A stretch of 64,000 bases of DNA, taken from positions 124,001 through 188,000 of the forward strand of contig NZ_LR027857.1 in assembly GCF_900607235.1 (NCBI RefSeq), in the 5' to 3' direction. The DNA is from Olivibacter jilunii (lineage in GTDB: Bacteria; Bacteroidota; Bacteroidia; Sphingobacteriales; Sphingobacteriaceae). The notes below the pieces were generated by a model. The model was not told the DNA's origin, did no database searches, and worked only from the letters and a program-made list of their open reading frames with translations. This document shows positions 4,197-26,852 of this stretch, piece after piece (positions within the stretch are counted from its first letter, which is position 1; each line of letters begins with the position of its first letter). Position numbers and translations under genes: made by a program.

Positions 4197-4229
4197 TGCA
4201 ATCTACTTTTATGGTACAACGAGTATATA

Positions 4230-7595: not shown

Positions 7596-7606
7596 ACCTC
7601 TCCGTT

Positions 7607-8593: not shown

Positions 8594-8673
8594 ATACTTC
8601 TTTTATCATCTCATACAAAGAAGTGAAGGAGAAGGACGATTCAAGGTGAAAATTTTTTAGTTTATTTTAGAAA

Positions 8674-9249
8674 TCATGTATTCATCAGAAACAAGGCACC
8701 AATAAGCCCCATTGTGAACTCCGTATGGGCTAGCATATATTGTTTAATAAACTTAAGCGCTTTCACGATCTGATCTTTTACCGTATTTTTAGATATAGCC
8801 AGTTGATCCGCTATTTCTTCGTGAGAAAGAAATTCAATACGACTCATTCGAAAAATTAGTTGGCGCTGCGGCGGTAATTTACTAATCGCTTCCTCATATA
8901 GTTGTTGAAGCTCCTTATAGTCCAAAGAGTCTTCTACCGCCTCGTGACTTACTGCATGACTATAAAAAACATGGTTGATGTACTCTTCATGGCGTACGAT
9001 TTCCTTCAATTTATTATAGATCAAGTTTCTCGCAATGCGATAGGTATACGCTTTTGCACTTTGTGTTGGATCGAGTGTGGCCCGGTGTTTCCATATTTGC
9101 ATGAATACTTCTTGCACGATTTCTTCAGCAAGTATAGCAGATCGAAAGAAACGGAAAGCGTAATTATATATAGGATGCTTTAAGTCGTCATAAAACAACC
9201 GAAAAGCTTTTTGATTCCCTGCGCGTATCGCTATTATTCGAGTATCCAT
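8674..9249 (-). CDS. ECF RNA polymerase sigma factor (locus 1)
   Basis: A 191-residue sigma-70 of the extracytoplasmic-function class. Region 2 is seen at about residues 25-90 (AEEIVQEVFMQIWKHR) and region 4 helix-turn-helix at about 125-170 (HEEIADQLAISKNTVKDQI). The last 15 residues are hydrophobic, a tail often seen in SusC-linked sigma factors of this phylum. It is released by FecR and should direct transcription of the SusC/SusD genes behind it. A LacI-type operator lies 211 bases upstream, so the gene itself may be carbon-source controlled. A TAGGTTTG box (minus strand, 9267-9274) fits the Bacteroidetes -7 consensus but has no clear -33 partner. Confidence 0.95.
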   Translation of the reverse strand: MDTRIIAIRAGNQKAFRLFYDDLKHPIYNYAFRFFRSAILAEEIVQEVFMQIWKHRATLDPTQSAKAYTYRIARNLIYNKLKEIVRHEEYINHVFYSHAVSHEAVEDSLDYKELQQLYEEAISKLPPQRQLIFRMSRIEFLSHEEIADQLAISKNTVKDQIVKALKFIKQYMLAHTEFTMGLIGALFLMNT

Positions 9250-9459
9250 TGTATCAAATTAGTTGGCAAACCTAACACGGGTATGTTTAATCTGGTTTAA
9301 GTTCCTATCAACTTAATAAGAATTTTCTCACTTCCATATTAAAAACATTGCTTCAAAGGAACAGGTTATCTCCCTTTCAGTTTATATGATATTTATTGGT
9401 TAGTACGATAATATAGACAATATTAAAATTCGATTAGCGCTTTTCAAAATACCAAATAA

Positions 9460-9475
9460 ACGCAATCGATTGCGT
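9460..9475. promoter_or_regulatory. LacI-family-type operator palindrome upstream of locus 1 sigma factor
   Basis: ACGCAATCGATTGCGT is a perfect 16-base palindrome with the AANCGNTT core typical of LacI/GalR-family operators. It lies 211 bases upstream of the locus 1 sigma-factor start and 49 bases beyond the stop of the DUF5107 gene. A near copy lies at 24870-24885 upstream of the other sigma factor. No LacI-type regulator gene is in the window. Confidence 0.65.
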
Positions 9476-9523
9476 AGAATAAACATGTTAACTTATGTAA
9501 CAAGTTGAACCAATCAATCACCT

Positions 9524-12500
9524 TTAAAACAGTCGCTCATCGCTTTTATTGAAGATGAGGTTGATAAGCAATAACACATTAGCTTCTCCTCCTAACGCAT
9601 TTTTCACTAATTTTTCATCAATTGCTTCCAGCTTTTCACGCTTTCTTTTTGTGGTCCACAACTGCATCAACCGAGCCGCTTCTGTTTTTCTTCCCAATTT
9701 TACAAGGGCAGCAACCTGTAACAATGAGACGGGATATGACAGCACACCCTTGCTCGCCGCCATCATTTCCAAGATACGTCTACAGGAATCTGGTTTTTGC
9801 ATTTTCCTGTAAACCTCTGCAGCGATCCAATCCGCGATACGTTCGTCTTTCTCCTCTAAGTAAGGTTCACCGGCACCTAAATTAACAGGCCATAACTTAG
9901 CCTCCTGTACCTTTTTCAGTGTTAGATCAAATTTCCTATTATTGAATGCTTCTAATGCCAGTAATAGTTTAGTTTGCTCATATAACTTCCGCCCATCGGT
10001 AGCTCCTTCAAAAGGCAAAATGCGAATTTCTTGCAAGACTTTTTCGGCCTCTTTCAGTCTTTTGTTCAATAAAAGCGCACGTACATAATCTAAACCTATG
10101 ACATAGTTTTCGGGATTTTTTTCATAATAGTTTCGCAACACTTTTTCCGAGGCGATATACTGTCGATCCGCCAGTAAATACTTTGCCATTAATTGTCCAT
10201 AACGCCATTCGTTTTTGTCAATTTCAATTGCTTTTCTTATGTTAACCAAGACATCACTAGACTGCGTGGAGTCGGAAAGCAGCGCCTTTAAAACATAAAA
10301 GGGCGCAAAATCAACCGGCTCATTTACCTCCTGGACTAAACGCCGCGCTACCGAAGGATTATTTCTAAATTGTTGGAGCAAAGCCATCAAATAGAACCCT
10401 TGCCAAGAAGGATGTTCTTTTATTACCCAATCAAATATAGCTGCACTTTCTTCCCTAAAGGGAAAGTTACGCATTAAATCAGCTTGACCTACTTGCTTCA
10501 ACCAGGCCTCACTTTCTGTAGGATTGTTCCTATTCAACCAGGCCAGCCAGTATAATATTTCTGCATTTTTCGGAGCTAACTCCAGCACTTCGCATGCCTC
10601 TTCTTTTAATTGGAGATTAGCATACCATATAGCGAGCTCCAAATAAGTCTCTACGGGCAGTTCATTACGTATTAAAGACACAAAAGCCTCGCGAGTGGTA
10701 TCTGACCTTTCGGCAAAATATTGTTCGAAACGCAAAAAGTGATTGAGGGGATCTAAGTCAGCTAACCGTCGTTTTACCGTATCGCACAATGCCTTTCGTT
10801 GGCATAATCTTGCGCCTATATATTGCAGTTGAAGCGCAAACACATTATCTTGATTGCACTTCAATGCTTTTCCCGCGTATTCCAAGGATTTTGAAAATTC
10901 TTTCCTTCTTATATATAGCGCACTGAGCTGCGTATAAGCTGCATTTTTCCATGCAGGATCAAGCGAGGCCACTTCGAAAGCATCTAGCGCATCGTACACT
11001 TTGTCCAAATGCGCTGCGGCTAAGCCATAATAATAATTGGCTTCTCCATGATAAGTATCCACACTTAATGCCTTCTGTGCGTATATATAGGCGGAGTCAT
11101 ACTCGAGATGGAAAATTTTTAACTTTGCCATTTCAACCAACGCGGGTAACAAGAAGGGTTCACGCATTAAAGATTCCCTAATCTTTGGGAAAGCCTCACG
11201 ATAACTTCTAAAACGCATTAAGTCCCTTCCCTGCAAGTATAATCCATAAGCTGAACTGCTATCCAACGCAACCGGTTTTCTCGATGGTCTGTTGAGTACA
11301 TTTTGCTTTTCCTGCTCCGCCAAATCAAATATTTCTCCTTGCAACTTTACTTTCGCGACAGAGGTTAAAGAGGGAGAGGGGATATCCCGCTCGAGCGTTT
11401 CTCCGGTGTTCAGCTCAACAAAGCAAGAAGTGATCGTTTCATCCGCTTCATTGTATACAATCAAACTATCACGAATTGGACTATTTGCCAGCAGTCGCAG
11501 TCGTATACTATTATTTTTACTACTTATATTCAGCGTAGCTAAAGGACGACTGGTGGACGGTTTTCCTATTCCTTGATAAGGGTACCAGTATTCTAGCCAC
11601 TGGTCAGTCTGATAAGGAGCAAATCCTAATTGTTTAAAAGGTGTAAAGCTACTTTTAAACATATTTTGATTGAAGAGACGTCCACTTTGAATCTCAACAT
11701 ATTGCCCACTCTTGTCTGTTAATAGCTGCTCCCACATTTTACCCTCCCCCGATTGCGCCCACAGAAAAATTTTCTTTCCTAATTTTTCTTCTCTATTAGC
11801 ATAATGAATCATGCCATAATCGCTATTTTTCCAGTAGGCACTAAAATAATTGCTATGGACGCCTAACACGTGATACGACTTAGAACCCCCGAAATCGTTT
11901 TCTTTGTAAAATGACAGGTCCCTACCGGCTGTATCAATAGGCCAAGGATGACTTTCCCCATCGTGCCCAATATAGTGTGATCCCGGGTAGAGAAACTGTA
12001 GGTCCGTACCCGCCGGTATCCCCAAGTTCATCCACGTGTAATAAGCTTGCTCCAGCGGTGTTGAATTTGTCCAAAAAGATCGCGTGGAGAAATAAGCCTT
12101 GTCCTTTTCCAATTTTATTTCAATAGTCCATCTCGTTCTCGTTAACAAATCCAAGGTGCTGATAAAGCAGCTGACACTACCATCTTTATTCTCCCGCGTA
12201 AGGTAGTCTACGGGGGTAGAGGTGTTGGGTGTATGTCCGATAATTCCGTAATTGGCTTCAATTCCCCCGCTTGTCCAAGGGCCACGCATGGCAATGTCCC
12301 GAAATTTTACAACGCCATTATTATACAGGAAATCCCGCTTGTTCTTTTTATCATAGGCAGTCCAAATTTTTCCTCCTATCTCTGGCATAATCTGTATTTT
12401 CAGAAACTCATTTTCCAGCTCTACCACCTTCCATTCTTTGGATACAGCTTGATCAGTAAAACCGTCAAATCGGAAATATGGATAGATCTTTTCAGAAGGA

Positions 12501-12625
12501 ATAGGGTCAGGGTCCGAAAAAGGGTAGGTTATGTAAATCTTTTTGAGTTCTCTTATGCTTGCTTCTCCTTGTGCTCTTGTTAGCAATGGAAGCAAACCGA
12601 ATAATACGATATAGATACGCTTCAT
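9524..12625 (-). CDS. Secreted DUF5107 / TPR protein (end of locus 2)
   Basis: A 1033-residue protein with a signal peptide (about 1-19, MKRIYIVLFGLLPLLTRAQG). The first half (about 55-360) is a DUF5107 domain, a galactose-mutarotase-like sugar-binding fold, with PEIGGKIWTAYDKKNKRDFLY and GGIEANYGIIGHTPN as recognisable stretches. The second half (about 450-1000) is made of helical TPR-type repeats such as LDAFEVASLDPAWKNAAYTQ. The exact reaction is unknown; the fold suggests recognition or modification of a sugar in the periplasm or at the surface. It begins 22 bases after the glycoside-hydrolase-like gene and closes the locus 2 transcription unit. Confidence 0.9.
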   Translation of the reverse strand: MKRIYIVLFGLLPLLTRAQGEASIRELKKIYITYPFSDPDPIPSEKIYPYFRFDGFTDQAVSKEWKVVELENEFLKIQIMPEIGGKIWTAYDKKNKRDFLYNNGVVKFRDIAMRGPWTSGGIEANYGIIGHTPNTSTPVDYLTRENKDGSVSCFISTLDLLTRTRWTIEIKLEKDKAYFSTRSFWTNSTPLEQAYYTWMNLGIPAGTDLQFLYPGSHYIGHDGESHPWPIDTAGRDLSFYKENDFGGSKSYHVLGVHSNYFSAYWKNSDYGMIHYANREEKLGKKIFLWAQSGEGKMWEQLLTDKSGQYVEIQSGRLFNQNMFKSSFTPFKQLGFAPYQTDQWLEYWYPYQGIGKPSTSRPLATLNISSKNNSIRLRLLANSPIRDSLIVYNEADETITSCFVELNTGETLERDIPSPSLTSVAKVKLQGEIFDLAEQEKQNVLNRPSRKPVALDSSSAYGLYLQGRDLMRFRSYREAFPKIRESLMREPFLLPALVEMAKLKIFHLEYDSAYIYAQKALSVDTYHGEANYYYGLAAAHLDKVYDALDAFEVASLDPAWKNAAYTQLSALYIRRKEFSKSLEYAGKALKCNQDNVFALQLQYIGARLCQRKALCDTVKRRLADLDPLNHFLRFEQYFAERSDTTREAFVSLIRNELPVETYLELAIWYANLQLKEEACEVLELAPKNAEILYWLAWLNRNNPTESEAWLKQVGQADLMRNFPFREESAAIFDWVIKEHPSWQGFYLMALLQQFRNNPSVARRLVQEVNEPVDFAPFYVLKALLSDSTQSSDVLVNIRKAIEIDKNEWRYGQLMAKYLLADRQYIASEKVLRNYYEKNPENYVIGLDYVRALLLNKRLKEAEKVLQEIRILPFEGATDGRKLYEQTKLLLALEAFNNRKFDLTLKKVQEAKLWPVNLGAGEPYLEEKDERIADWIAAEVYRKMQKPDSCRRILEMMAASKGVLSYPVSLLQVAALVKLGRKTEAARLMQLWTTKRKREKLEAIDEKLVKNALGGEANVLLLINLIFNKSDERLF

Positions 12626-12647
12626 GAGTTCGTCAATAATAGATTCA

Positions 12648-15635
12648 TTATTCGATGATCAACAGCCAACCTTGATTCTGATTGACCGGGATTTTGTCGC
12701 CTATCTTGAAAATTCGCATCGCTTGAAAACCATCAATCTGAGGTGCCCGAATTAGTGCCTTGGCAGGATCAATTCCTAAACTTTCCCAATTAATCACCAA
12801 GTCAACCAGAACGTTTTTATTTTCCCAACTGGCTAAGGCAATCATTGCCTTTTTCTCCTTTTTGTAAACGGTAGCTAAAACTTGCGGACTACTCGTTTTT
12901 ACCGGATTAGTTTCAACCCAGTAACCAATCATTCGAGACCCCTTAATTCCAAAATCATCCCAAGCTTTCCAAAGTGCCTGCGGGCCACTTTTTTGATAGG
13001 GTAACCGATTAGTCATGCCATAAATCATACCGCGCCAGGGATTGCCCCCATCTTGCAACATCTCCCCCATTAACCCGAAAGGAATGCCACTCACTTCTGT
13101 TAGAAAAAAATCCGGCTTGTTATTTTCATAATCAAAATACTCGCCGAACCAAAGCCTATTGATATAGGGAAAATGTTCAAGATAGAGATTCGCACTATTG
13201 TTAAAGCCATCACGCTCGTTATACTGATTCGCTGAATGCAGATCAATTAAACCGGGATGGCCATTTTTAGTCATAACCCGCTTAATGCGCTTCATGGTTA
13301 CGCGATCGAAAGCCACATCATCCAAGTAAATACCATCTATACCGATCCGATCAACCAACCAATTCATCCCCTCCACATAATAGTTATGCCAACGATTCAT
13401 ACCACTATTAATAATAGCCGCATCTTTATACAAAGGTACAAACCAAGCCGCAATATAATCGTCATGTAAATGCTCTTGTAGCCAGGAGTAGCCTTTCCCC
13501 GGGCCAGGAGAAAACACTTCGTGTCCCAAACTACGGAAGGGGTAGAGCTCATACATCCGATTGGACACTTCTCGCACCGTATTGTAAATTTTCACTTTAA
13601 GTCCTACGCGATGAGCCGAATCAATATAAGCCTTCATTGCTTTCGTGGCAATAAAGGGATAGTTAATGTAGGGGTTCAAGGCATTGCCATGATGAATATT
13701 GATCACATTCGCCCCACTTTGCTTCACCGTATCAACCGGTTTATAAGCATGGAAATAACGTTCATTCCATTGCGCCTCCGTATTGAGTGGATGAAAAGGT
13801 GTAAGTAATAAGGTAAAATTATAGTAAAGCGTATCGCCGGCACGCATAGTTCGCTCTCCGCTATAGTTATTCACTAACACGGAAGCTCCCTTCATACTTA
13901 TATCAATACCTCCCTTGTCGTTATTACCCCACGACTTTGGGAGTAATAGAGGCTTTTGCAAATAAAAATTTGTATTCAGCGGCCTTGTATAGTTCTCATC
14001 CCGTAGCGAAAACTGCATCCCCGCGTTTACATTACCAATCCAGGCGCCATCTTGGTTCTTTTTAGCGACATCCCACTTCCAAACAACCTGTTCCGGTCTA
14101 TATCCGCCTTTCATCCCAAGTCCCATCATATAGGAAGCCATTTCCGGTTTATAAGGTATGTGCATTGCAATGTCCTGCAAGGTTATATTTTTCCTTGCAA
14201 TAAGCCCGACTGTATAACTGACAAAACCATCAAACTCTAAGGAACCTTGTACCTCCATTCGCAGTTCGTTCGAAACGTGATGGCTTTCCCAGCTTACAAT
14301 TCCAGCCTGCTTTTCTTTAAAAGAAAGTCCCTGAGTCTTGAATGCTATATCTTTGCCGTCTACCTTACGTTTCACATGAAAATGAATGGGCTCGGTTAAC
14401 AAGCTTGTCGAGGTTTTACCGACACTCGTCATCTCCGGTGTAAAATAGCTTATCAATTGTTTCGGGAACCCGGTTCGATCGAGAATAAGCTTCCTTCCTA
14501 AAAGGGAGATAGCAGTGTCACCCGATACCACAAGGGGGATATAGGGCTTTATCACCGTGTTTTCCTGTGCTAAAGTGGAGTTCAGCCAAGGCAGTCGTGT
14601 CATTTTCCAGGGTTCATCTATCCCTTTGTTACGAGCCACGGTCGGCCCAACCTTAAGGCTGAGGGCTACCCTTTTCTCCGGTGCGTTGGCAGGACGAACG
14701 TATACAAAGCCTTGATAAGTCCCGGGTTTAATATCTTCAGGAATGTGAACCCCACACCAGAGCGCCTGAACTTTTGACAAGGGAACGTTAACTGTAGCAG
14801 AGAAGGGCTTCCCTTTATAACTCGTTCCTTCTGTATTGATGCAATCAAATGCTTCTGCCGGCAATGTTGTTCCCATTTCGCTTTCTAAGGATGAAAACCG
14901 GACCGTTACGTTTTTCAAATCGGTTTTTGCCGACCATATACCTAGCTGAAAAGCGTAATAGCATCCTCGCTCCGTTTCGCCCTTTAGAGCCGCCACCAGG
15001 TTCGTCTCCATCCACTTCTTCGGCACATGTGATCGCATCTTAATCGGATGCGTGTACAGTTCGGGAAAGATAAAATAGTTTTCATTTGTGTACTTTTTCA
15101 AGTAAGCTTGGATTTCCGCTTTCGTAGCGATGAGTTCCATGGGATCGTTCCGATTAAATTCATCTACTGATTCGAATCGAAGAAATTTCGCTTCATTATT
15201 GGTTTTGATCTTTGCCCATGCCTGATCGTCAGGAGGCTGGCTGAGATATATCGCGTCGGGATAATATCGGCTTCTACCACCTAGCTGATAAGGTAAATAA
15301 TAGACATAGTAAATCCCCGAACCTGATGTCGCTTCAAAAGCAAAGTCGCCTCCCTCCTCAGACATCGGGCCATAAACTATAGGTTTCACCAGTTGGTTGT
15401 TTGTGCTATCAACGATTATCAGGCCTTGATTTGCCTTCACCTGTCGGTTTCTCCATGCTATGGAGGCTTTCACGAGTTTATCCCCTCCGTCAACCCGCAG
15501 TACCGCTCGTTGATTACCCAATGAATCAGCGTTCCATTTAGCTTTCTCCGGTGGATAGGGATGCTGGCCCCAAGCTATTAAACCGCGGATTAATAAGCAA
15601 ACAGTAATTGTCAGTCGCATTGTTTTAGTATCCAT
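12648..15635 (-). CDS. Large secreted glycoside-hydrolase-like protein (DUF6067/GH123-like)
   Basis: A 995-residue exported protein. I start it at ATG 15635, just after the upstream stop, because a signal peptide then follows at once (MRLTITVCLLIRGLIAWGQ region) and the longer reading would run back into the arylsulfotransferase gene. The middle has beta-sandwich-like segments (KVGPTVARNKGIDEPWKMTRLPWLNS) and the C-terminal third resembles a TIM-barrel glycosidase: LKVKIYNTVREVSNRMYE, then DRIGIDGIYLDDVAFDR with the paired Asp residues expected at an active site, and HSANQYNERDGFNNSANLY. It matches uncharacterised DUF6067/GH123-like proteins as far as I can recall. Its place in a SusC/D locus supports glycan or glycoside cleavage; bond and substrate are unknown. 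Confidence 0.82.
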   Translation of the reverse strand: MDTKTMRLTITVCLLIRGLIAWGQHPYPPEKAKWNADSLGNQRAVLRVDGGDKLVKASIAWRNRQVKANQGLIIVDSTNNQLVKPIVYGPMSEEGGDFAFEATSGSGIYYVYYLPYQLGGRSRYYPDAIYLSQPPDDQAWAKIKTNNEAKFLRFESVDEFNRNDPMELIATKAEIQAYLKKYTNENYFIFPELYTHPIKMRSHVPKKWMETNLVAALKGETERGCYYAFQLGIWSAKTDLKNVTVRFSSLESEMGTTLPAEAFDCINTEGTSYKGKPFSATVNVPLSKVQALWCGVHIPEDIKPGTYQGFVYVRPANAPEKRVALSLKVGPTVARNKGIDEPWKMTRLPWLNSTLAQENTVIKPYIPLVVSGDTAISLLGRKLILDRTGFPKQLISYFTPEMTSVGKTSTSLLTEPIHFHVKRKVDGKDIAFKTQGLSFKEKQAGIVSWESHHVSNELRMEVQGSLEFDGFVSYTVGLIARKNITLQDIAMHIPYKPEMASYMMGLGMKGGYRPEQVVWKWDVAKKNQDGAWIGNVNAGMQFSLRDENYTRPLNTNFYLQKPLLLPKSWGNNDKGGIDISMKGASVLVNNYSGERTMRAGDTLYYNFTLLLTPFHPLNTEAQWNERYFHAYKPVDTVKQSGANVINIHHGNALNPYINYPFIATKAMKAYIDSAHRVGLKVKIYNTVREVSNRMYELYPFRSLGHEVFSPGPGKGYSWLQEHLHDDYIAAWFVPLYKDAAIINSGMNRWHNYYVEGMNWLVDRIGIDGIYLDDVAFDRVTMKRIKRVMTKNGHPGLIDLHSANQYNERDGFNNSANLYLEHFPYINRLWFGEYFDYENNKPDFFLTEVSGIPFGLMGEMLQDGGNPWRGMIYGMTNRLPYQKSGPQALWKAWDDFGIKGSRMIGYWVETNPVKTSSPQVLATVYKKEKKAMIALASWENKNVLVDLVINWESLGIDPAKALIRAPQIDGFQAMRIFKIGDKIPVNQNQGWLLIIE

Positions 15636-15646
15636 TTTAGGCTTTT

Positions 15647-17140
15647 TTAATCCGGCTTCATTTTTACATAATCCTGCCAAAATTTGGCCGGCACATACTC
15701 CGCGCGATAAGGTATAAAATAGGTATTCAACTCCCATAGCACTTTCCCTTGTTTATCGGATATTAAAACGCTCCCTGTCTTTGAACTGGTTTGCAGCACG
15801 TTCCCGTTAGGCAGTAAATAAGCACTTCCCATTCTTGCTGTGTATTGTTTGCCAGGCAGCGGAACATCCAATTTTTTTGATGCTGTTTTCCTTTTCTCAT
15901 CCAGGGAAAAAGATAAAGCTCTGGATTTCTTATTTGCGGTAGAAGAGTCCCGAGGAGAAAAATCGCCGTTATCGAAGAGCATTAAATCACCGTCTTTATT
16001 GATATGCGGCGCGTGTTGAAAATAGAAAAAGTCGGAAGCATCTAATTGAAAGTCCCCGCCCTGTCCCAATCGCCACATGGTTTTTCCTGTTTGAGCGTTG
16101 ATTTTCCATACTTGATTCTCGATAGGAGACGACACCAGGTAATTGCTGTCTTTGTCGAAAGAGATGGTATTAATATGAAATCGATCATGTTTTAAGCTGT
16201 CTAACCGTCTATCTTTTGCCAAATCCCAATGATCCCATGTCGACCATTTTTTTAATACCTTCCCGGTCGTATCCATTACGACGATACCATCACCCCATAA
16301 GGTATCGATAGATTTTCCCGTCTGTTTTTCCGGCAAGATATAATCCCGAACAACCGCCACAATGTGATTGGCCTTATCCATACGTAAATCGTGGTGCACA
16401 ATTAATCCAAGCTTATCTACATTCAATCGCCAACGCACCCGCCCGGTGAGATCAATTTCAGCGAGCTCCGTTCCGCCCATATAACCCATTTTACCAGTCC
16501 GTAAGCTGTATCCCATACCACTTTTTACAAAAGCTTTGTTAGGTTCCGGCTTATAGAATTCGTCCTTCCCTACCGGCGCTAAGAGCGCCAATATAGTACC
16601 ACGGGGAGTAAGCGAAGCGATCCGTACCCCCATCTTTTCGTCTTGCCAGTACCACTTGATTGCTCCCTTTCCATCAACCATGGCAATGTATCCCGGAAAC
16701 TCCCGATAGCAAAGCATCGTTAACCCATCGCCCATTGCCCGAGGATCATGGGGATGTTCCTCTTTAATCCAGTCATGCACCATCCAAGGCGATTGCTTTC
16801 GCGTTTTAAAACGCATGACTTTCGATTTTACCGGAATCAACCGATCGAGCACAATACGGTAGTGATAGTCGGTATCGGCATCCAACATCAAGAGATTGAA
16901 GATATGGTCTTTTTTCTCGCCTTTTACGGGGGTATAATAGTGCTCGCCATTCGCGCTCCAATATTCTACATAGGCCGCCGCTGGTCTATTCAATTTTACA
17001 TGAATATCCTCCTTGATGGCAGAGTTATCCGGCGAAGACAACTGAATGTTAACTAGCTGAACATATTGACTATAAAAATAGTAGCAGGCATACAAGACGG
17101 CTATTACAAGGGCTCCGATAACAATTTTGAGTATACGCAT
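15647..17140 (-). CDS. Arylsulfotransferase (ASST)-like beta-propeller protein
   Basis: A 497-residue protein anchored or exported by an N-terminal hydrophobic segment (about 5-24). Residues 30-110 look like a fibronectin-like entry domain, and the rest is a six-bladed propeller with repeated tryptophan/aspartate strands. ASST-family marks are VHHDLRMDKANHIVAVV and QHAPHINKDGDLMLFDNGD, which carry the conserved histidines. Known ASST enzymes move sulfate between phenolic groups without PAPS; here a role in handling sulfated or aryl-linked glycosides is only inferred from the locus. It lies 12 bases behind SusD and 11 before the hydrolase-like gene. Many distant ASST relatives have no proven activity. 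Confidence 0.85.
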   Translation of the reverse strand: MRILKIVIGALVIAVLYACYYFYSQYVQLVNIQLSSPDNSAIKEDIHVKLNRPAAAYVEYWSANGEHYYTPVKGEKKDHIFNLLMLDADTDYHYRIVLDRLIPVKSKVMRFKTRKQSPWMVHDWIKEEHPHDPRAMGDGLTMLCYREFPGYIAMVDGKGAIKWYWQDEKMGVRIASLTPRGTILALLAPVGKDEFYKPEPNKAFVKSGMGYSLRTGKMGYMGGTELAEIDLTGRVRWRLNVDKLGLIVHHDLRMDKANHIVAVVRDYILPEKQTGKSIDTLWGDGIVVMDTTGKVLKKWSTWDHWDLAKDRRLDSLKHDRFHINTISFDKDSNYLVSSPIENQVWKINAQTGKTMWRLGQGGDFQLDASDFFYFQHAPHINKDGDLMLFDNGDFSPRDSSTANKKSRALSFSLDEKRKTASKKLDVPLPGKQYTARMGSAYLLPNGNVLQTSSKTGSVLISDKQGKVLWELNTYFIPYRAEYVPAKFWQDYVKMKPD

Positions 17141-17152
17141 ACTAAAAAAGTG

Positions 17153-18706
17153 CTAGGGTAAACGTTGGGCGTTGGCTGCTGCCATTTCAGGATGCAGGTT
17201 CGCTTCATCTAAGGGATATGGAAAATAGCGAAGCTTTTCGGTAACCTTCGGCGTCATGCCACGGGCTTTTAGATAAGCATTGCATACTTCTTCATATTTA
17301 CCTAATCGCACCAAATCTGCTTTACGCTTGTACTCAAAAACGAGCTCGAAACCACGCTCGTCAACCAGTGCGTTAACAAACTCCTCCTTCGTTGCAGGAG
17401 CTGGAAAATCGGCACTTTCGCCTAAAAGTGGAGCCCCTGCTCTTTTTCTGATTTCATTGATGTAGGGTAGACCCGCTGATGGGCCTGATAATGCATTCTC
17501 GATTTCAGCTTTGCACAAGATTACATCGGCTATACGAAATACCTGGATGGTTCGTCCGTCCAAGTACGAACTGTTCACCATTTCATAAGAGTACTTCTTA
17601 GTCGCTACGTTCTGCAATAATTTTGTGGTATCATTGGGCGCGGTGGTTTGTCCAGGGTTTGGAATCGTATAGTAAAACCCGTGTGTAGTAGACCCGTCTC
17701 TTGCCGCTTTTCCTTCATAATTATAGTAGAAGAACTGCTTTCGTGGGTCGCGGTCATCAAACTTACGCCAGAATTGTAAAGAAACCCCGTAATACTGCCA
17801 ACGGTCAGTCACCTCTTGGTGATCAGTAGGACCGAAATGGTTGGCAATTTCACCACCATTGAGTGATGATTCATGTAAAATACCGAATATCATACCTTTA
17901 TCCATTTTGTTTGATTCGGACCATTCGTTTTTAAAATCGGGATTTAAGGTATAAACGCCCTTATCACGTAGCGCAAGCACTTGATCGATGTATACTTTTG
18001 CCTGCTCATAGTTATGGGCGCGCATATAGTTTTTACCTAAAAGTGTTAGCGCTGCACCTTTAGTTGCGCGTGCTAAGCCTAGCTCACTCGTCCAGCTTTC
18101 CGGGAGCACCTCCGCTGCGAAAAGGCAGTCCGCATGAATTAAAGAATCTACCTGTTCAACGGCAGATAAAGGTGTATTATAACTTTCCGCTGGATTTTTT
18201 GTGGAAGTGATCAAAGGTACCGGCCCCCAAGCATCCGTTAGGTCATTATAGGCCAATGCCCTTAGAAAACGAGCTTGTCCTATCACAAGGTTTTTATTTT
18301 CATCGCTCATCCCTGATACAGCGGTAATATTATCAATCAACAGATTGGCATTCGCTATAACCTGATACATATTTTGCCAGTTATTCTTAAAATAGCGATT
18401 GTTTTCGTCGTAAGAAAAATTGCTCAAATGGGTCGGATTACCAGCCGCAGTAGAGAAACCCATATCGGTTGCGTAATCGGTAATCATCACCAAATAGCCC
18501 GCGTAGTAAAGATAGGCATCACCCGGGTAAGGCCCTAGACTCGCATAAGTACCAGTTAATGCCGCGTTTATATCACTCTCCGAGGAATACGCATTTTCGG
18601 TAGTCAAATCGCTGTATAGCTCAGGTTCCAATTTTGTACAAGCACTAATCGTAGCCCATATTGTTGCGAGGCATAAAAAACGGTGGCTTAATTTTATGAA
18701 GTTCAT
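17153..18706 (-). CDS. SusD/RagB-family outer-membrane lipoprotein (locus 2)
   Basis: A 517-residue substrate-binding lipoprotein. The start at 18706 is chosen because it gives a lipoprotein signal, MNFIKLSHRFLCLATIWATI followed by SAC (Cys about residue 22), and lies 10 bases after the SusC stop; a longer reading overlaps SusC. Family marks are TTENAYSSESDINAALTGTY, ALAYNDLTDAWGPVPLIT and the C-terminal IRKRAGAPLLG plus ERGFELVFEYKRKADLVRLG, which define classical RagB/SusD proteins. It should cap the SusC barrel and bind the ligand that the downstream enzymes act on. Confidence 0.95.
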   Translation of the reverse strand: MNFIKLSHRFLCLATIWATISACTKLEPELYSDLTTENAYSSESDINAALTGTYASLGPYPGDAYLYYAGYLVMITDYATDMGFSTAAGNPTHLSNFSYDENNRYFKNNWQNMYQVIANANLLIDNITAVSGMSDENKNLVIGQARFLRALAYNDLTDAWGPVPLITSTKNPAESYNTPLSAVEQVDSLIHADCLFAAEVLPESWTSELGLARATKGAALTLLGKNYMRAHNYEQAKVYIDQVLALRDKGVYTLNPDFKNEWSESNKMDKGMIFGILHESSLNGGEIANHFGPTDHQEVTDRWQYYGVSLQFWRKFDDRDPRKQFFYYNYEGKAARDGSTTHGFYYTIPNPGQTTAPNDTTKLLQNVATKKYSYEMVNSSYLDGRTIQVFRIADVILCKAEIENALSGPSAGLPYINEIRKRAGAPLLGESADFPAPATKEEFVNALVDERGFELVFEYKRKADLVRLGKYEEVCNAYLKARGMTPKVTEKLRYFPYPLDEANLHPEMAAANAQRLP

Positions 18707-18716
18707 TTTTTTTTCT

Positions 18717-21700
18717 TTAAAAGTTAACATTAACACCAAAAGTAAAGGCACGCATGCTAGGATAAGAGTTAAAGTCCAAACCAGCACCCGCGTTAGCCGT
18801 TTGCGCATTGGAACTATATTTAATCAGCGCATCATTTTCATAGCCTTTCGTGTCGACCTCTGGATCCCAGCCTGAATAACCACTGATTGTAAACAGATTT
18901 TCAGCCATTACATATATGCGTAATGATTGCATCGCTTTGGTTTTTAGGGGTACTGTGTAGCCTAATGTTAAATTTTTTAACCGCAAAAAGGAGGCGTCTT
19001 CCACAAAATGATCATTCACATACCCCCCATATTCTGTATAATAGAATCCATTTCGAGGCAAGTCGGTGTTGGTATTTTCGGGTGTCCAGCGATTCAATGC
19101 ATCTGTAGAACGATTCCATTCCAAATTCATGCGCGTCATATTTAGCAGGTCGTTACCCAAATTCCCATAAATGAAAACAGATAAGTCGAAATTTTTGTAA
19201 GCGAAGGTATTGGTGATTCCATAGGTAAGCTTTGGATAAGCAGATCCGATGATTGTTCTATCCGCAGCGGTAATAATACCATCTCCATTGACATCGGCAA
19301 ATTTCGGATCGCCGGCTTTCGAATTAGGTTGTGCCGCGTAGGCTTCTCCCTGCTGAATAACGCCAATATATTTGTATCCAAAAAGCGAACCGAGCGGCTC
19401 TCCTTCGCGAATAATGGCATAAGCCTCTTCAGAAACGGTTCCCATTGGCTTGGAAGAAGTAATAAAGATATCGTTATCGCCACCAAGATCAAGCACTTTA
19501 TTGCGGTTCATGGCAAAATTCAATTTCGTGTCCCAGGTGAAAGCTCCGGTTAAATTTTTTGTAGCGATAGCGAACTCAAATCCCTTATTGGAAACAGAAC
19601 CAACATTACTTTGACCAGAGGAATATCCGGAGTACAGAGGTAAATTCAATTTAATCAAGAGGTCGCTTGTCTTTTTATAGTAAGCGTCCATGGTAACGGC
19701 AATACGATCATTCAACAAAGCGAAGTCTATTCCGGCATCGTACTGGCTGGTCGTCTCCCATTTAAGTCTTGTATTAGCAGGTGATGAGCTATTTAAATAG
19801 GTACCACTGGTATTATTGATTCCATCAAAGGTATAATTGGCATTGCTCATTAATCCGTAAGAAGCATAATTCCCAATCCGTTCATTCCCGGTTTTACCAT
19901 AACCCAGACGCAACTTAAGATCGGAGAACAATTGTTGGTTTCGCATAAAAGATTCGTTGATCAACTTCCAGGCGAAAGATCCGGAAGGAAAGGTGCCCCA
20001 TTTGTTGTCGGAGCCAAAGCGCGAAGAACCATCGTGCCTTACGGTGAAAGTAAACAGGTATTTATCATCAAAAGAATAATTTGCCCGACCGAAAAATGAA
20101 ATCAGCATATTTTCCGATTTATAAGAATTGACACCCGAGATGGTAGATGCCGCACCCAGGTTGTTATAACCATACAAGTCTGTTGAGAATCCATACACAT
20201 TGATTCCCTTATTACTATTTGTAAATTTTTCATAAGAGTAACCGCCCATTAGATTTAGGTGATGCTTGCCGAAACCTTTATCGTAGGTAATAAACATGTC
20301 CGCTAAATTGTGGGTCAGGTTATAATCCGACTGGGAGGCTACTCCCTTATCGATACTACCTTGATAAGAGTCTTGCGACAAGTAAGTACCCAATTGATCA
20401 TGCAGAATTTCGGTGCCCGCGTCAAACCGTGCAGTTAGGCCTTCAAATGGTTTTATCTCCAAATAAACGTTCCCATTAAGCTTATCCTTTTGTACATCGT
20501 TCTGACGAGCCATTAAATTTGCAAGTGGGTTGTCTCCTCTTCCTCCGGGAGGACGGCCAAAGGCACCATTCGCATCATATACCGGAACGGTGGGATCATA
20601 AGTCAGCACACTGTAGAGCACATTGGAATTCAAGATATTTCCATCATATATTTGGTAGTTGGAATTTTCTCTTTGACCAAAGATGGAAGCACCTGCACGT
20701 ACATAATCATTAATAGTTTGATCGATGTTGACTCTTCCGGATACACGTTTGAAGTCGGTAGTTTTTAGAATCCCCTTTTGATCGAAGTAACCCACACTGC
20801 TTAATACCTTCGTCTTCTCACTCCCACCTGTAAATTGTAGATTATGATTTTGTACGGTAGCGGTTCGAGTAGCTTCTTTCACCCAATCTGTGTTGATGGT
20901 TGAATTCAATTGCGATTGCGTATAAACACCATTCTCAATTCCTTCCTGTCCGTTGATTTCTTTATACAACTCATTAGCAAGCAACATATAGGATTTACCG
21001 TCCAGCAAATGATAAGGATTGATTGCCTTTTGCGTTCCGATATATCCGTTGTAAGCGACATTGCTTTGCCCAGCTTTACCCCGTTTTGTGGTAATCATCA
21101 CCACACCGTTAGCACCCCGTGAGCCATAAATAGCCGTAGCGGATGCATCTTTTAAAATTTCCATAGACGCAATGTCGTCTGGATTAATGTTGACCCCATT
21201 ATTGCTGGGGAAACCGTCAATGACATAAAGCGGTTCATTACTGCTACTTACTGAGTTGGAGCCACGTATGCGAATAGACATACTTCCACCTGGGGCTTTT
21301 GAGTTTTGTGTGACTACTACACCGGATGCACGTCCCTGAATAGCCTGCGCGACATTACTGATCGCGCCTCCTTTTGTTAAGTCATCGGCACTTAGCGAAG
21401 CGATTGAGCCCGTCAAATCTCCTTTCTTTTGTGTACCATAACCAACAACTACCACTTCATCTAGTCGCGATTCGATATTGCTCAAAACAACATCAATAGT
21501 TCCGGCGTTTGTTACGGGAACCTCCTTTTCGGCATAACCGATAAATCGGAAGACTAGGGTAGCCCCCTCAGGCACTTTTAACTGATACTGCCCATTCGCA
21601 TTAGTCGTGGTACCGTTAGATGCCCTGCCCTTCACAAATACCGAAACACCCGTCAATGCCGCTACCGAATCTCGGACCGTACCGCGTATATCCAGGTCCT

Positions 21701-22094
21701 GTTGCTGCATCATTTCGCGGCTTGAGCTTAGAGCTGAAACAGGAGCAATCGTGATGGTGGTGTTATGTCTCTTATATTGCAATTTTTTGCTATTTAAAGC
21801 CTTTTGCAAAACTTCCTCCACCGGCACGTTATGTAGCTTTAAGGAAACAGTACCTGCCGCCTTCAGCTGTTCCTCGTTGTAAAGGAAACGATAGTGTGTC
21901 TGTCTTTTCAGTGCTTGCAATACCTCTTTCAGTGGCGCATTCTCTAGCGATATGCTGACCTGTTGCGCCTTCCCTGCTGCATAGACACCCCACGAAAAGA
22001 CAAAGACCATCAGCCATGTTAATTTCATAATCCTTACAATTTGTAAGTAAAGCGTCTTCCTTCCCGACGCTTTCTCTCGAGATAAACGATTCAT
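18717..22094 (-). CDS. SusC/RagA-family TonB-dependent outer-membrane transporter with STN domain (locus 2)
   Basis: A 1125-residue TonB-dependent importer. It has a long N-terminal leader common in this group, with the hydrophobic signal at about 23-43, an STN domain (about 45-115, VSISLENAPLKEVLQALKRQ), a carboxypeptidase-like domain (about 133-210), the SusC motif LDEVVVVGYGTQKKGDLTGS, the plug mark IRGSNSVSSSNEPLYVIDGF with ILKDASATAIYGSRGANGV, and a barrel ending FTFGVNVNF. An internal ATG at 22028 is an alternative start. FecR ends 226 bases upstream, a wider gap than in locus 1, so a sigma-dependent promoter probably lies in 22095-22320. Confidence 0.95.
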   Translation of the reverse strand: MNRLSREKASGRKTLYLQIVRIMKLTWLMVFVFSWGVYAAGKAQQVSISLENAPLKEVLQALKRQTHYRFLYNEEQLKAAGTVSLKLHNVPVEEVLQKALNSKKLQYKRHNTTITIAPVSALSSSREMMQQQDLDIRGTVRDSVAALTGVSVFVKGRASNGTTTNANGQYQLKVPEGATLVFRFIGYAEKEVPVTNAGTIDVVLSNIESRLDEVVVVGYGTQKKGDLTGSIASLSADDLTKGGAISNVAQAIQGRASGVVVTQNSKAPGGSMSIRIRGSNSVSSSNEPLYVIDGFPSNNGVNINPDDIASMEILKDASATAIYGSRGANGVVMITTKRGKAGQSNVAYNGYIGTQKAINPYHLLDGKSYMLLANELYKEINGQEGIENGVYTQSQLNSTINTDWVKEATRTATVQNHNLQFTGGSEKTKVLSSVGYFDQKGILKTTDFKRVSGRVNIDQTINDYVRAGASIFGQRENSNYQIYDGNILNSNVLYSVLTYDPTVPVYDANGAFGRPPGGRGDNPLANLMARQNDVQKDKLNGNVYLEIKPFEGLTARFDAGTEILHDQLGTYLSQDSYQGSIDKGVASQSDYNLTHNLADMFITYDKGFGKHHLNLMGGYSYEKFTNSNKGINVYGFSTDLYGYNNLGAASTISGVNSYKSENMLISFFGRANYSFDDKYLFTFTVRHDGSSRFGSDNKWGTFPSGSFAWKLINESFMRNQQLFSDLKLRLGYGKTGNERIGNYASYGLMSNANYTFDGINNTSGTYLNSSSPANTRLKWETTSQYDAGIDFALLNDRIAVTMDAYYKKTSDLLIKLNLPLYSGYSSGQSNVGSVSNKGFEFAIATKNLTGAFTWDTKLNFAMNRNKVLDLGGDNDIFITSSKPMGTVSEEAYAIIREGEPLGSLFGYKYIGVIQQGEAYAAQPNSKAGDPKFADVNGDGIITAADRTIIGSAYPKLTYGITNTFAYKNFDLSVFIYGNLGNDLLNMTRMNLEWNRSTDALNRWTPENTNTDLPRNGFYYTEYGGYVNDHFVEDASFLRLKNLTLGYTVPLKTKAMQSLRIYVMAENLFTISGYSGWDPEVDTKGYENDALIKYSSNAQTANAGAGLDFNSYPSMRAFTFGVNVNF

Positions 22095-22320
22095 ATCTGT
22101 TTTGCTGCTACGTCCATATGGAATATTCGGTCTAATTTATTCACATTTGTAGTGCTTATACTACCTGGATATTTCATACTTTCGTATAGTTAGGGTTTGG
22201 TTATTATATCCTTCAATCATAATACGAGTGCCTTAACTTTTACCGGGAGTGTTGGCCCACTCCCGGTATTCGTTTGACGTTTTTACTAACTATTAGGTTG
22301 GTTTTGATTTCAAGTTCATT

Positions 22321-23481
22321 TCAACTAGGATTTGCTATAATTTGGAGCTTTCGTCCGTTCACATTAAAATTCAATCCGCTTACTTCTTTCAGCATTTCGA
22401 GTACTTCGCTTAACCTCTCTTTTCGACTGATACTGCCACCAATATGGATATCGGGAAGTTTTCCTTTGTATGATAGTTCGAGATCATACCAGCGAGCAAC
22501 TTCCTCTAAAATAGGTTTGATGGCATCTTCATTGAATAAAAAGTGTCCTTCTTTCCACGCAAGAGCTTTTTCAATATCAGCAGTTCCTATGTTAAGATCA
22601 TTACCATCAGCGACGGCACATTGCCCCGGTTTTAGATCATATAGGCTGCTGCCGTAATGAACTTTTACCGCGCCACTAACGAGGGTTGTCATGCTTTCCT
22701 TTTCATAGGATCGTGCGTTAAAGCTTGTCCCTAAAACAGTAATTTTTGTATCATTCATTGTGACTTTAAAAGGGCGCTTTTTGTCCCTTGCCACTTCAAA
22801 ATAGGCCTCACCTTCCAAGGTAACTAGCCTTTCATTATTAGCAAAACTGACCGGAAAAACAAGTTTTGATGCGGCATTAAGCCAAACCTTTGTTCCGTCA
22901 GGTAAGGTAAGACGGTAGTTACCCCCGGGAGGAACAAAAAGTGTATTATAGATTAACCGGGCCGCGCTTGCCTTTTCTCCTCGATAGATCAGTTCTTCTT
23001 TAGTTCCCTGCATATTCGTCCCATCATGTTCATTAAGCGCCACCGATTTGCTACCAAGGTGAATGGCACTACCGTCGGAAAGCACTAATTTCGCCTTACT
23101 TTCACCAGGTAACACATCATTCGCATAGCGATGGGAACTGTCAGGAATTACCTTATTGTCTCGGTGATTAAAGTGCTTGAGCGTAAAGGTTAAGAATAAA
23201 GCGATGCCCGCAGCGATACTTATCCAAAAGGAATTTATTCGGCGCCTGGATCCCTTATTTGCTTTTTCTTTAAAGCGATTCCAAGCCTTTTCGGTATCCC
23301 TTTCTTTTAAAGTCTTTATACGACTTGCTATCGTTGGTGTGTCCTTATACATTTCCAACAGATCTTGCAGGTTTTTGTCTCGCTCCAGTAAATCTAAAAA
23401 TTGAGACTCCTCCTGCTCAGAAAGTGTACCTTGAATGTACCCGGCTATCAATCGAGCCTTTTCCAGTGGGTCGTCGTACAT
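22321..23481 (-). CDS. FecR-family anti-sigma factor (locus 2)
   Basis: A 386-residue membrane relay. The cytoplasmic part (about 1-80) is followed by a transmembrane segment near 82-101 (INSFWISIAAGIALFLTFTL), a periplasmic FecR domain (LPDGTKVWLNAASKLVFPV, GEAYFEVARDKKRPFKV, LGTSFNARSYEKE) and a DUF4974-like tail ending GLNFNVNGRKLQIIANPS. It should hold the sigma factor at 24162-24722 until SusC signals ligand uptake. Unlike locus 1, where 80 bases separate the pair, 680 bases lie between this gene and its sigma factor. Confidence 0.95.
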   Translation of the reverse strand: MYDDPLEKARLIAGYIQGTLSEQEESQFLDLLERDKNLQDLLEMYKDTPTIASRIKTLKERDTEKAWNRFKEKANKGSRRRINSFWISIAAGIALFLTFTLKHFNHRDNKVIPDSSHRYANDVLPGESKAKLVLSDGSAIHLGSKSVALNEHDGTNMQGTKEELIYRGEKASAARLIYNTLFVPPGGNYRLTLPDGTKVWLNAASKLVFPVSFANNERLVTLEGEAYFEVARDKKRPFKVTMNDTKITVLGTSFNARSYEKESMTTLVSGAVKVHYGSSLYDLKPGQCAVADGNDLNIGTADIEKALAWKEGHFLFNEDAIKPILEEVARWYDLELSYKGKLPDIHIGGSISRKERLSEVLEMLKEVSGLNFNVNGRKLQIIANPS

Positions 23482-23615
23482 ACCTCTTCGTTATATACTG
23501 CTAAAGCACCTTCGGATAAAAAAAGTATGGAAGAAAATGAAAAAAATTATGAAGAAAATACAGGTTGCTCAGGAAAAGCAACTGCCTAATGAAATCAAAG
23601 GTTTATTTTATACAT

Positions 23616-23639
23616 CCCACTTGGACGCACCCAAGTGGG
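23616..23639. repeat. Hairpin near the left end of the GC-rich block
   Basis: CCCACTTGG (23616-23624) and CCAAGTGGG (23631-23639) form a perfect 9-base stem with a 6-base loop. No T-run follows on either strand, so it is not a standard terminator. It lies 15 bases inside the left direct repeat. Confidence 0.7.
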
Positions 23640-24034
23640 GCAAGGTGCTTCGGCTTGTCTATTCCGTTGCAACCCGTGGTCAAGATGCCCATCCGTGAAT
23701 CGGAGCCACCCTCTTACACAATGGCATGTCCTTCGTTCGTCGATTCACTGATTACCGTCTGCTTCGCATAATAATGGTGAAGGGGCATCTTTGACTGCCG
23801 GTTGCTGCCTCCACAGACTAGGCCATTGACGTCCTTCGGAACGGCTATGCGTCTGGGTGATGGCGCAGGGTAAAACGGCCTTCCAGGGTGAGCGTAAAGA
23901 AAATTCGGTTAGCAGGGCGGGCTAAAGTGCTATGCGAAAAAGCGAAGGGAAGGAATTGTGAATAGGGGCGGCTCCGCAGAACAGAGGGATAGGAACCGAA
24001 TTTTTAGCGAGAACTGGACAGCCTTGATGTTTGC

Positions 24035-24061
24035 CTCACTTTGCATCGAAGGTAAAGTGAG
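24035..24061. repeat. Hairpin at the right end of the GC-rich block
   Basis: CTCACTTT (24035-24042) and AAAGTGAG (24054-24061) form a perfect 8-base stem with an 11-base loop. Its last base directly abuts the right-hand 12-base direct repeat at 24062. Confidence 0.7.
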
Positions 24062-24161
24062 ATGAAATTAAAGAGAATAAAAATATGACTAAAATAATCC
24101 TTCTTTTAATCTAAGCGCTATTACGAAGTATATGCGATTGAATACTCGTGGTACTGCAAGC

Positions 24162-24722
24162 TTATTTTAACAAGGTGACAAGAAGCACCGTAAAAAGCTC
24201 GGGCTTCAATTGCTCTTTGAGTAGATGAAGGGCTCGCTGTTTTTGACTTTTTACAGTATGGATACTTATACCTAAAAGCTCAGCAATTTGCGGGTTCTTT
24301 AGTCCTTCCAAGTATCCCATCCTGCATATCATGGCACAGCCTCCCGGAAGCTTATCTAAGGCGGCCATTAATTCCCCGAGAACTTCTGCATGAATTAAAA
24401 AGTTATCGATCTGAAAATCTTCTAATAATTGGTCCGGATGCTGTTTTTGATATTTTTCGACCACCTTATGGTGTCTAAATCGATTGAACGCATCATGTTT
24501 AATGGTTGTATACAAATATGATTTAATGGCATGTTCGCTCCAAAGCGTACCATTTGTCTGTTCACAGAAGACAACGAAAGCGTCCTGCACCAAATCTTCC
24601 GCTTCCTCCTCATTGCCCGAAAGCTTATACGCGAATTCAAACAAACGCAGATAATACTTTTTGAATAAGTCTTCAACTGACAAACGATTCGGTTGGTCCA
24701 TGTAATTGGGTTCATTCATCAT
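24162..24722 (-). CDS. ECF RNA polymerase sigma factor (locus 2)
   Basis: A 186-residue ECF sigma factor. Region 2 is at about 15-80 (LFKKYYLRLFEFAYKLSG, EEEAEDLVQDAFVVFCEQ) and region 4 at about 120-175 (LEGLKNPQIAELLGISIHTV), followed by a hydrophobic tail. ATG at 24722 or the next codon (24719) can start it. It heads locus 2 and should transcribe SusC, SusD and the enzymes once FecR lets it go. A LacI-type operator lies 148 bases upstream of the start, parallel to the locus 1 sigma gene. Confidence 0.95.
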   Translation of the reverse strand: MMNEPNYMDQPNRLSVEDLFKKYYLRLFEFAYKLSGNEEEAEDLVQDAFVVFCEQTNGTLWSEHAIKSYLYTTIKHDAFNRFRHHKVVEKYQKQHPDQLLEDFQIDNFLIHAEVLGELMAALDKLPGGCAMICRMGYLEGLKNPQIAELLGISIHTVKSQKQRALHLLKEQLKPELFTVLLVTLLK

Positions 24723-24869
24723 AAAGCACCTATGTATTAGATAATCAATATCTAGTAAATACCCTGCTTAGTATTGGTTAATATAATTGAACTAGCGATT
24801 CTTATCAGAAAGATTGATTGTATCGATCAAGTGTAGAAACTTTTTAGATGAAATGCAAATCCTTTGCAA

Positions 24870-24885
24870 ACGCAACCGATTGCGT
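24870..24885. promoter_or_regulatory. LacI-family-type operator upstream of locus 2 sigma factor
   Basis: ACGCAACCGATTGCGT differs from the perfect palindrome at 9460-9475 at a single position and keeps the AANCGNTT core of LacI/GalR operators. It lies 148 bases upstream of the sigma-factor start. The shared site suggests that both SusC/D loci answer to one regulator encoded elsewhere. Confidence 0.65.
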
Positions 24886-24903
24886 GTTTTGATATCAGCT
24901 GTC

Positions 24904-24917
24904 GGTCGGTACCGACC
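24904..24917. promoter_or_regulatory. 14-base perfect palindrome next to the operator
   Basis: GGTCGGTACCGACC is a perfect palindrome 18 bases beyond the LacI-type operator. It may be a second protein-binding site; no family consensus is recognised. Confidence 0.4.
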
Positions 24918-25061
24918 AAGCTGTAGGTATAAGGTTTAGGTATTAGCTTTCAGCTATCGGATCGGATGTCGGCTTTCGACTGTAACTATGGACAATAAGC
25001 GTTGAACTCATGACAAGGCACTCATTACTCCTCACTCAATGCGCATATACTCTATTACTTC

Positions 25062-26120: not shown

Positions 26121-26214
26121 ACACAAATATAGAAGATGTAGTGTATATGACATAATTTATTCCTATGATACAAACTTAGAGAATAGTAATATTTTAGGTA
26201 TAGTTAATTGTTGA

Positions 26215-26844: not shown

Positions 26845-26852
26845 TCATTGAA

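Follow-up and report, generated by a model that had tools for sequence, protein, structure and literature searches.

A conserved SusC/D-type utilisation locus of Olivibacter jilunii, probably an operon, with an ASST-like protein and a hydrolase under a misleading family name

What is taken up by a SusC/D-type utilisation locus in which no standard glycoside hydrolase (GH) can be recognised, and what do its accessory proteins do? We take up this question for seven minus-strand genes of Olivibacter jilunii (contig NZ_LR027857.1, positions 124,001 to 188,000; this whole stretch of 64,000 nt is called the window), which the list of open reading frames (ORFs) and domain searches identify, in this order, as a sigma factor, FecR, SusC, SusD, a protein resembling arylsulfate sulfotransferases (ASST), a hydrolase-like protein filed in Pfam as GH123_N (PF19543) and a DUF5107-TPR protein. 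A first-pass annotation had proposed the same order from the DNA letters, together with the view that the genes form a utilisation locus lacking any standard glycoside hydrolase, and both are borne out: the susC and susD homologues are adjacent, the sigma/FecR regulator pair adjoins them, and the domain search of the window ORFs recognised no standard family among the rest, so that this is confirmed as a real sigma/FecR-linked utilisation locus. The probable operon is conserved, its hydrolase is misnamed, and the idea of a sulfated substrate stays open. No description of the locus was found in the open-access PubMed Central (PMC) literature, as judged by titles and the openings of abstracts, one broad result set having been sampled in part.

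A five-gene cassette kept across families

The ORFs of the hydrolase and of SusD are over-long at their 5' ends, and internal starts precede what appears by eye to be a signal peptide. With these starts, the intergenic gaps across the five genes from SusC to DUF5107-TPR are 10, 12, 11 and 22 nt; FecR and SusC are 226 nt apart, and 274 nt separate the DUF5107-TPR gene from the next large ORF downstream. Because of this close packing, SusC, SusD, the ASST-like protein, the hydrolase and DUF5107-TPR are likely encoded by one operon and co-transcribed, which fits the grouping of the accessory genes with SusC/D in the first-pass annotation.

That annotation had also proposed searching related genomes for the gene set. 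Relatives of the hydrolase were collected by scanning one genome per species, and the best 80 of 528 were analysed; counts out of 80 refer to these loci, and gene presence was judged within the fetched flanks, some of which stop at contig ends. Many of the loci come from one genus, and the counts are not independent. An ASST-like gene is present in 43/80 loci, a DUF5107-TPR gene in 41/80 and both in 39/80, and in all 39 of these full cassettes SusC, SusD, ASST, hydrolase and DUF5107-TPR follow one another in the same order on one strand. Chance would not give the same order in 39 of 80 relatives. Full cassettes span four families, the Sphingobacteriaceae (Olivibacter, Sphingobacterium, Mucilaginibacter), Flavobacteriaceae (Flavobacterium, Arenibacter, Salegentibacter), Cyclobacteriaceae (Echinicola) and Chitinophagaceae (Ilyomonas); the family was looked up for four genera, and the others are placed where we take them to belong.

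Two types can be told apart among the loci with an ASST gene: 19 resemble the window (SusC 64-86% and ASST 53-79% identical), and 24 are distant (SusC 39-43%, ASST 28-31%). By hydrolase identity, the nearest relative among the best 80 is that of O. sitiensis (L004, 76%), where no ASST gene was seen, an M60 peptidase gene stands directly before the hydrolase and SusC is 27% identical. In a distant genome (L137), the hydrolase and DUF5107-TPR genes are adjacent in reverse order, and the hydrolase there is 44.5% identical to the nearest of the 80. Full-length PF19543 occurs in 6 of 198 sampled Bacteroidota genomes, and the family is therefore patchy.

The hydrolase and its two partner proteins

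The first-pass annotation described the hydrolase as DUF6067/GH123-like, and half of this description holds. PF19543 matches the protein with 1447.8 bits over profile positions 2-969 of 969, and a profile built from 57 relatives matches the solved GH123 enzymes 5l7v and 5fqe only at about residues 218-338, in an N-terminal beta-sandwich, over which the whole hydrolase aligns with GH123 proteins at an hhalign probability of 95.9 (residues of the hydrolase are given in A1 numbering, the ORF residue minus 35, such that Asp771 is ORF residue 806). The barrel is what the name gets wrong. PF13320, the GH123 catalytic domain, gave no match to the hydrolase at E 0.001 and none to the barrel at E 1; against seven GH123 proteins the barrel reached an hhalign probability of 0.2; and the 57 aligned hydrolase sequences contain no invariant Asp-Glu pair, the catalytic pair that we take to be a feature of GH123, their one frequent DE (545, 82%) lying outside the barrel. 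The genome of O. jilunii also carries three separate PF13320 genes outside this locus. That the hydrolase is a GH123 beta-N-acetylgalactosaminidase, as its Pfam name and the sandwich might suggest, is scarcely credible to us, and membership of GH123 was rejected: the catalytic domain and the Asp-Glu pair are absent, and the likeness is limited to a sandwich outside the barrel. Since the PF19543 model, with its 969 positions, takes in the whole barrel, the Pfam name "Glycoside hydrolase 123, N-terminal domain" mislabels these proteins.

The sequence comparisons point, faintly, in another direction. GH66 and DUF6259 appeared as sub-threshold matches in 10 of 10 barrel sequences in the Pfam search, and profile comparison of the barrel by hhalign gave 65.3 for GH66 and 89.3 for DUF6259. 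Over the roughly 100 aligned barrel columns, a GH66 template Asp falls on Asp771, which ends strand 767-771 of the structural model; we take this GH66 Asp to be the nucleophile at the end of strand 4, the acid/base Glu of that family presumably standing at the end of strand 6. Conservation was read from alignments in which 57 of the 81 hydrolases, 34 of the 44 proteins of ASST-like type and 34 of the 42 with DUF5107-TPR were included, the protein of the window being counted in each case. Asp771 and Glu831 occur in every one of the 57 hydrolase sequences; the C-terminal part has 15 further acidic positions that never vary, so that invariance alone does not single the two out. Glu831, a candidate for the acid/base, lies 60 residues past Asp771, outside the GH66-aligned stretch and in a poorly modelled part. 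The hydrolase differs from GH66 dextranases and DUF6259 proteins in this placement, in staying under the Pfam cut-off and in the GH123-type sandwich in front of its barrel.

The AlphaFold2 model of the hydrolase (mean pLDDT 80.2) comprises beta domains and a TIM barrel and closes with a further beta domain at the C-terminus. Foldseek ranks first an A-type blood group alpha-galactosaminidase (TMq 0.31, root-mean-square deviation (rmsd) 10.4), an enzyme that we take to belong to GH36, and VIA-align places GH13 amylases at the top (Z 17.0, rmsd 4.1, 333 aligned); as these rankings differ, structure alone says little beyond "TIM barrel with C-terminal beta domain". Kinship of the barrel with GH36 found no support in sequence, the hhalign probability against a five-protein GH36 alignment being 0.1, though Foldseek ranks the galactosaminidase first. 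GH101, GH31 and GH129 were not among the Pfam matches of the barrel at E 1 (a Pfam search only, without profile comparison), and no solved sequence relative of the barrel is convincing, the one weak match (E 0.35) being a carboxypeptidase. In our reading the hydrolase is probably a glycosidase with a retaining mechanism, whose family we could match to no characterised one; no published activity test of this kind of enzyme was found in the open-access PMC literature.

The ASST-like protein scores above the cut-offs of PF05935 (120.8 against 24.2 bits) and PF14269. His249, His250, His322, Asn324 and His376 are invariant in 34/34 sequences, and alignment with EcAST (3elq served as the reference; 4p04 has a different letter at the His436 place) sets His376 on His436, His322 on His356, Asn324 on Asn358 and His250 on His252 in all 34, the local alignments around His252 and His356 being weak on their own. 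Four of the five tested EcAST active-site residues are thus kept (the Thr501 region is unaligned). According to the accessible part of PMC13426309, from which the list of active-site residues is taken, His436 is the sulfated histidine of EcAST, and no natural substrate has been identified for ASST-type enzymes. The protein of the window has the Pfam family, the catalytic histidine and its three neighbours in common with the arylsulfate sulfotransferases (EcAST; the solved "Sulfotransferase" 9kf4), and differs from them in lacking Arg374 and in its place within a SusC/D operon. By its sequence we count it in the family, though its site is altered, and sulfuryl transfer is plausible for it. Two side observations concern its surroundings in other genomes. 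A cytochrome c gene lies between the ASST and hydrolase genes in 21 of the 43 ASST loci, all of the second cassette type (L060 and L068 among them), and the one inserted cytochrome that was scanned combines SoxA/TsdA-type and cytochrome c domains. Near the hydrolase in nine loci of Mucilaginibacter and Ilyomonas (L038, L039, L042, L045, L048, L049, L052, L056, L058) there are genes of inositol-monophosphatase type (CysQ-like, in our reading), adenosine phosphosulfate (APS) kinase genes or sulfotransferase genes of the type using phosphoadenosine phosphosulfate (PAPS), hinting at a link to sulfate metabolism.

In the model of the DUF5107-TPR protein (mean pLDDT 80.4), residues 21-353 fall on galactose mutarotases and the remainder on TPR proteins. 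The DUF5107 domain superposes on the Bacillus subtilis galactose mutarotase 3mwx with Z 24.0 (rmsd 3.1, 273 aligned), and on account of this fold alone the protein may bind or interconvert a released sugar. Its first structural match is BDI_1685 of Parabacteroides distasonis (5cd6; Z 28.9, 469 aligned), which likewise joins a DUF5107-type beta domain to TPR and is related in sequence (E 4.6e-26); it is shorter, with 575 residues solved, and its domains, while matching, are set differently (rmsd 18.0). The title of the 5cd6 entry names no function.

Neighbouring genes and the choice of substrate

The most specific indication of a substrate comes from genes found beside the cassette in some relatives. 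Each neighbour cluster took its name from one to three of its members, and a recount with profiles gave the same loci; single-locus neighbours were mostly left out. GH109-type genes occur in 20/80 loci, 10 of them like the strong GH109 of O. jilunii and 10, all in Flavobacterium, of a weaker form; three (L066, L060 and L025) were checked by Pfam and the rest placed by similarity, and L016 (cluster c7), which has no GH109_C domain in Pfam, was excluded. DUF3472(-DUF5077) recurs in 19/80 loci, an APH-family kinase in 9/80, GH35 in 6/80 and an M60 peptidase in 5/80, adjoining the hydrolase in three of these five, and 32/80 loci have at least one of these five families. The strong GH109 is found in four arrangements: upstream of SusC, directly downstream, divergent and convergent. 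In the sampled genomes, GH109 is present in 5/6 with full-length PF19543 against 52/192 without (Fisher p 0.008, uncorrected for kinship); G025, counted among the five, carries the weaker form. Other recurrent neighbours are LacI regulators and peptidases of M1 type (11 and 8 of the 80 loci), and in L058 a PF13320 GH123 gene stands between ASST and hydrolase. We also note a distant genome (L138:7836-9799) in which genes for a GHMP kinase of galactokinase type and a nucleotidyltransferase come after those of the hydrolase and DUF3472, an arrangement like that of sugar salvage.

The closest described system is the BT4240-50 locus of Bacteroides thetaiotaomicron, for which the accessible part of PMC11992087 reports activities on mucin O-glycoproteins and N-acetylgalactosamine (GalNAc) and lists SusC/D, GH109, a GH2 beta-galactosidase, an APH-type GalNAc kinase and an M60 O-glycopeptidase. 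It has sigma/anti-sigma and SusC/D genes in common with the window; GH109, the APH-type kinase, the M60 peptidase and a GH of beta-galactosidase type (GH35, in place of the GH2 of BT4240-50) are shared with some relatives of the cassette, which have such genes singly or together, and all the enzymes of BT4240-50, among them GH109, the GalNAc-type kinase and the M60 peptidase, are missing from the window. No PF19543, ASST-like or DUF5107-TPR gene is named in that part of the account (PMC11992087).

Because the neighbours of the relatives resemble those of BT4240-50, we suggest that the window encodes a SusC/D uptake operon, under sigma/FecR control, whose substrate is a glycoconjugate bearing GalNAc; an O-glycopeptide or a glycoprotein-derived oligosaccharide would be the likeliest. 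We hold this tentatively, at somewhat less than an even chance and about level with the view that another glycan is used, as the most specific reading of the results. The SusC/D pair would, as its families suggest, bring the fragment into the periplasm. There the ASST-like propeller, lipid- or membrane-anchored as judged by eye, would take a sulfuryl group off the glycan or pass it between glycan and acceptor by way of a sulfo-His376, a step proposed because four of the five tested active-site residues are conserved. Going by alignment and invariance, the PF19543 enzyme would then cut a glycosidic bond by a GH66-type retaining mechanism, in which Asp771 would be the nucleophile and Glu831 the acid/base; DUF5107-TPR would bind the released sugar or interconvert its anomers, its TPR part docking partners. 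The GalNAc set free would be left to genes at other sites, and on another contig of the same genome (L088:6973-10356, contig C8) a GH109, an APH-family kinase and a CBM9 gene stand side by side, likely a GalNAc module away from the window. If true, this would add a glycosidase family now filed by Pfam under a misleading name, offer a genetic context for testing what an ASST-type protein naturally acts on and, with the cassette present in several Bacteroidota families, help to predict substrates for other loci. In its full form the proposal goes further. PF19543 proteins would be an undescribed family of retaining glycosidases, with a GH66-like catalytic barrel behind the GH123-type sandwich, that act on sulfated O-glycans or glycopeptides and set GalNAc free; their ASST-like partner would transfer sulfuryl groups of glycans and be the first enzyme of ASST type, independent of PAPS, whose natural role lies in breaking glycans down. 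We consider this full form unlikely as a whole.

Several observations weigh against the GalNAc proposal and the mechanism attached to it, and they lead to its rivals. GH109, M60, APH kinase, GH35 and DUF3472 are all missing from the window's 37 ORFs of at least 200 aa and from the fetched flanks of 48/80 loci, including 20/39 full cassettes; half of the 20 GH109-type neighbours are of the weaker subclass, whose action possibly differs; and the locus counts, with one genus so heavily represented, are not independent. In the window's own cassette type, a GalNAc-type neighbour occurs in only 1/19 loci (L025), and the substrate of the second type therefore may not carry over. On the side of the enzymes, the best barrel score for GH66 (PF13199) is 22.0 bits against a cut-off of 23.7, all ten sequences staying below it; the barrel is poorly modelled (10-residue mean pLDDT 42-81 over 681-890); the ASST gene is absent from the flanks of 37/80 relatives; and the place of EcAST Arg374 is taken by Pro, Tyr or Phe in 34/34 sequences (Pro339 in the window protein). 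It is about as likely as the GalNAc reading, or slightly more so, at somewhat under an even chance, that the same kind of operon, with the same retaining GH66-like hydrolase, serves some other soil, plant, algal or bacterial glycan, and that the GalNAc-type neighbours reflect either shuffling among polysaccharide utilisation loci or the substrate of the second type. The lack of such neighbours in the window, in the 48 relatives and in 18/19 loci of its own type agrees with this, as do the many host genera that we take to live in soil, on plants or in the sea, and GH66, the sequence kin of the barrel, is an alpha-glucan family. The recurrence of GalNAc-type neighbours in differing arrangements and families speaks for GalNAc, as does the excess of GH109 in PF19543 genomes, with the reservations on kinship and the weaker form given above.

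A separate doubt, which fits either substrate, concerns the ASST-like propeller, in that it might be a binding or redox protein and not a sulfotransferase. The loss of the arginine and the cytochrome c gene inserted in 21/43 ASST loci would suit such a role; the equivalents of His436, His252, His356 and Asn358, invariant in all 34 sequences, argue for sulfuryl transfer, and the window cassette has no cytochrome gene, all 21 such loci being of the second type. We find the binding or redox role doubtful. A sulfated substrate, which the first-pass annotation had raised, is possible in the light of the four residues kept, the missing Arg374 counting against it. Its other suggestion, an aryl-linked glycoside, fared less well: we found nothing in its favour, and some relatives' neighbours point to the breakdown of GalNAc or O-glycoproteins. 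Aryl sulfates are donors for the ASST family in vitro, according to the accessible part of PMC13426309, and the ASST-like protein could in principle act on the sulfated aryl part of an aryl-linked or sulfated aryl glycoside. There is no aromatic-metabolism gene among the named recurring neighbours, a set outside which many single neighbours fall, and we regard an aryl substrate as very unlikely.

Features of the locus and its surroundings

Table 1. Features of the utilisation locus, in window coordinates.
Feature	Coordinates	Strand	Evidence or remark
ECF (extracytoplasmic function) sigma factor, 186 aa	24162..24722	minus	TIGR02985 128.0 bits, cut-off 126.4
FecR-type anti-sigma factor, 386 aa	22321..23481	minus	domain match
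SusC/RagA-type TonB-dependent transporter with STN domain, 1125 aa	18717..22094	minus	TIGR04056 900.3 bits, cut-off 368.25
SusD-type lipoprotein	ORF 17153..18808	minus	likely start near 18706
ASST-superfamily protein, 497 aa	15647..17140	minus	PF05935 Arylsulfotrans 120.8 bits
PF19543 "GH123_N" glycoside-hydrolase-like protein, 1029-aa ORF	12648..15737	minus	likely start near 15635
DUF5107-TPR protein, 1033 aa	9524..12625	minus	PF17128 389.7 bits and TPR; signal peptide by eye
GH123-type beta-sandwich in hydrolase	14613..14990	minus	about residues 215-340, A1 numbering
TIM barrel in hydrolase	12903..13799	minus	about residues 612-910, A1 numbering; candidates Asp771, Glu831
DUF5107 domain, galactose-mutarotase fold	11567..12565	minus	residues 21-353
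Gap between sigma factor and FecR, 680 nt	23482..24161		no long ORF; dispersed-repeat match
Perfect 11-bp inverted repeat between FecR and SusC	22241..22268		possible terminator or boundary

The gap between the sigma factor and FecR genes holds only short ORFs and a repeat with 16 matches in the O. jilunii genome, its own copy included, the best other copy being 92% identical over 117-552. Rfam gave no match at the gathering score over window positions 8000-27000, this gap included. A Bacteroidetes-type promoter pattern had 3 matches where 3.45 were expected, and a scan for sigma-70 promoters found 41 sites, 33.2 being expected. Terminator-like sites are more numerous than chance predicts (23, with 13.4 expected); since some minus-strand sites of this kind lie inside the operon and the strongest site, the inverted repeat between FecR and SusC, is listed on the plus strand, the scan neither proves nor excludes a single transcript for the five genes.

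Next to the sigma factor gene there is a glutamine cyclotransferase-type protein (PF05096; window 25062-26153), probably unrelated to the locus. Directly downstream of the operon (window 1-9249) lies a second sigma/FecR/SusC/SusD set, after which come genes for an amino-acid permease and an enzyme of glutamine-synthetase type; this suggests that the second SusC/D pair may serve an amino-acid-related compound.

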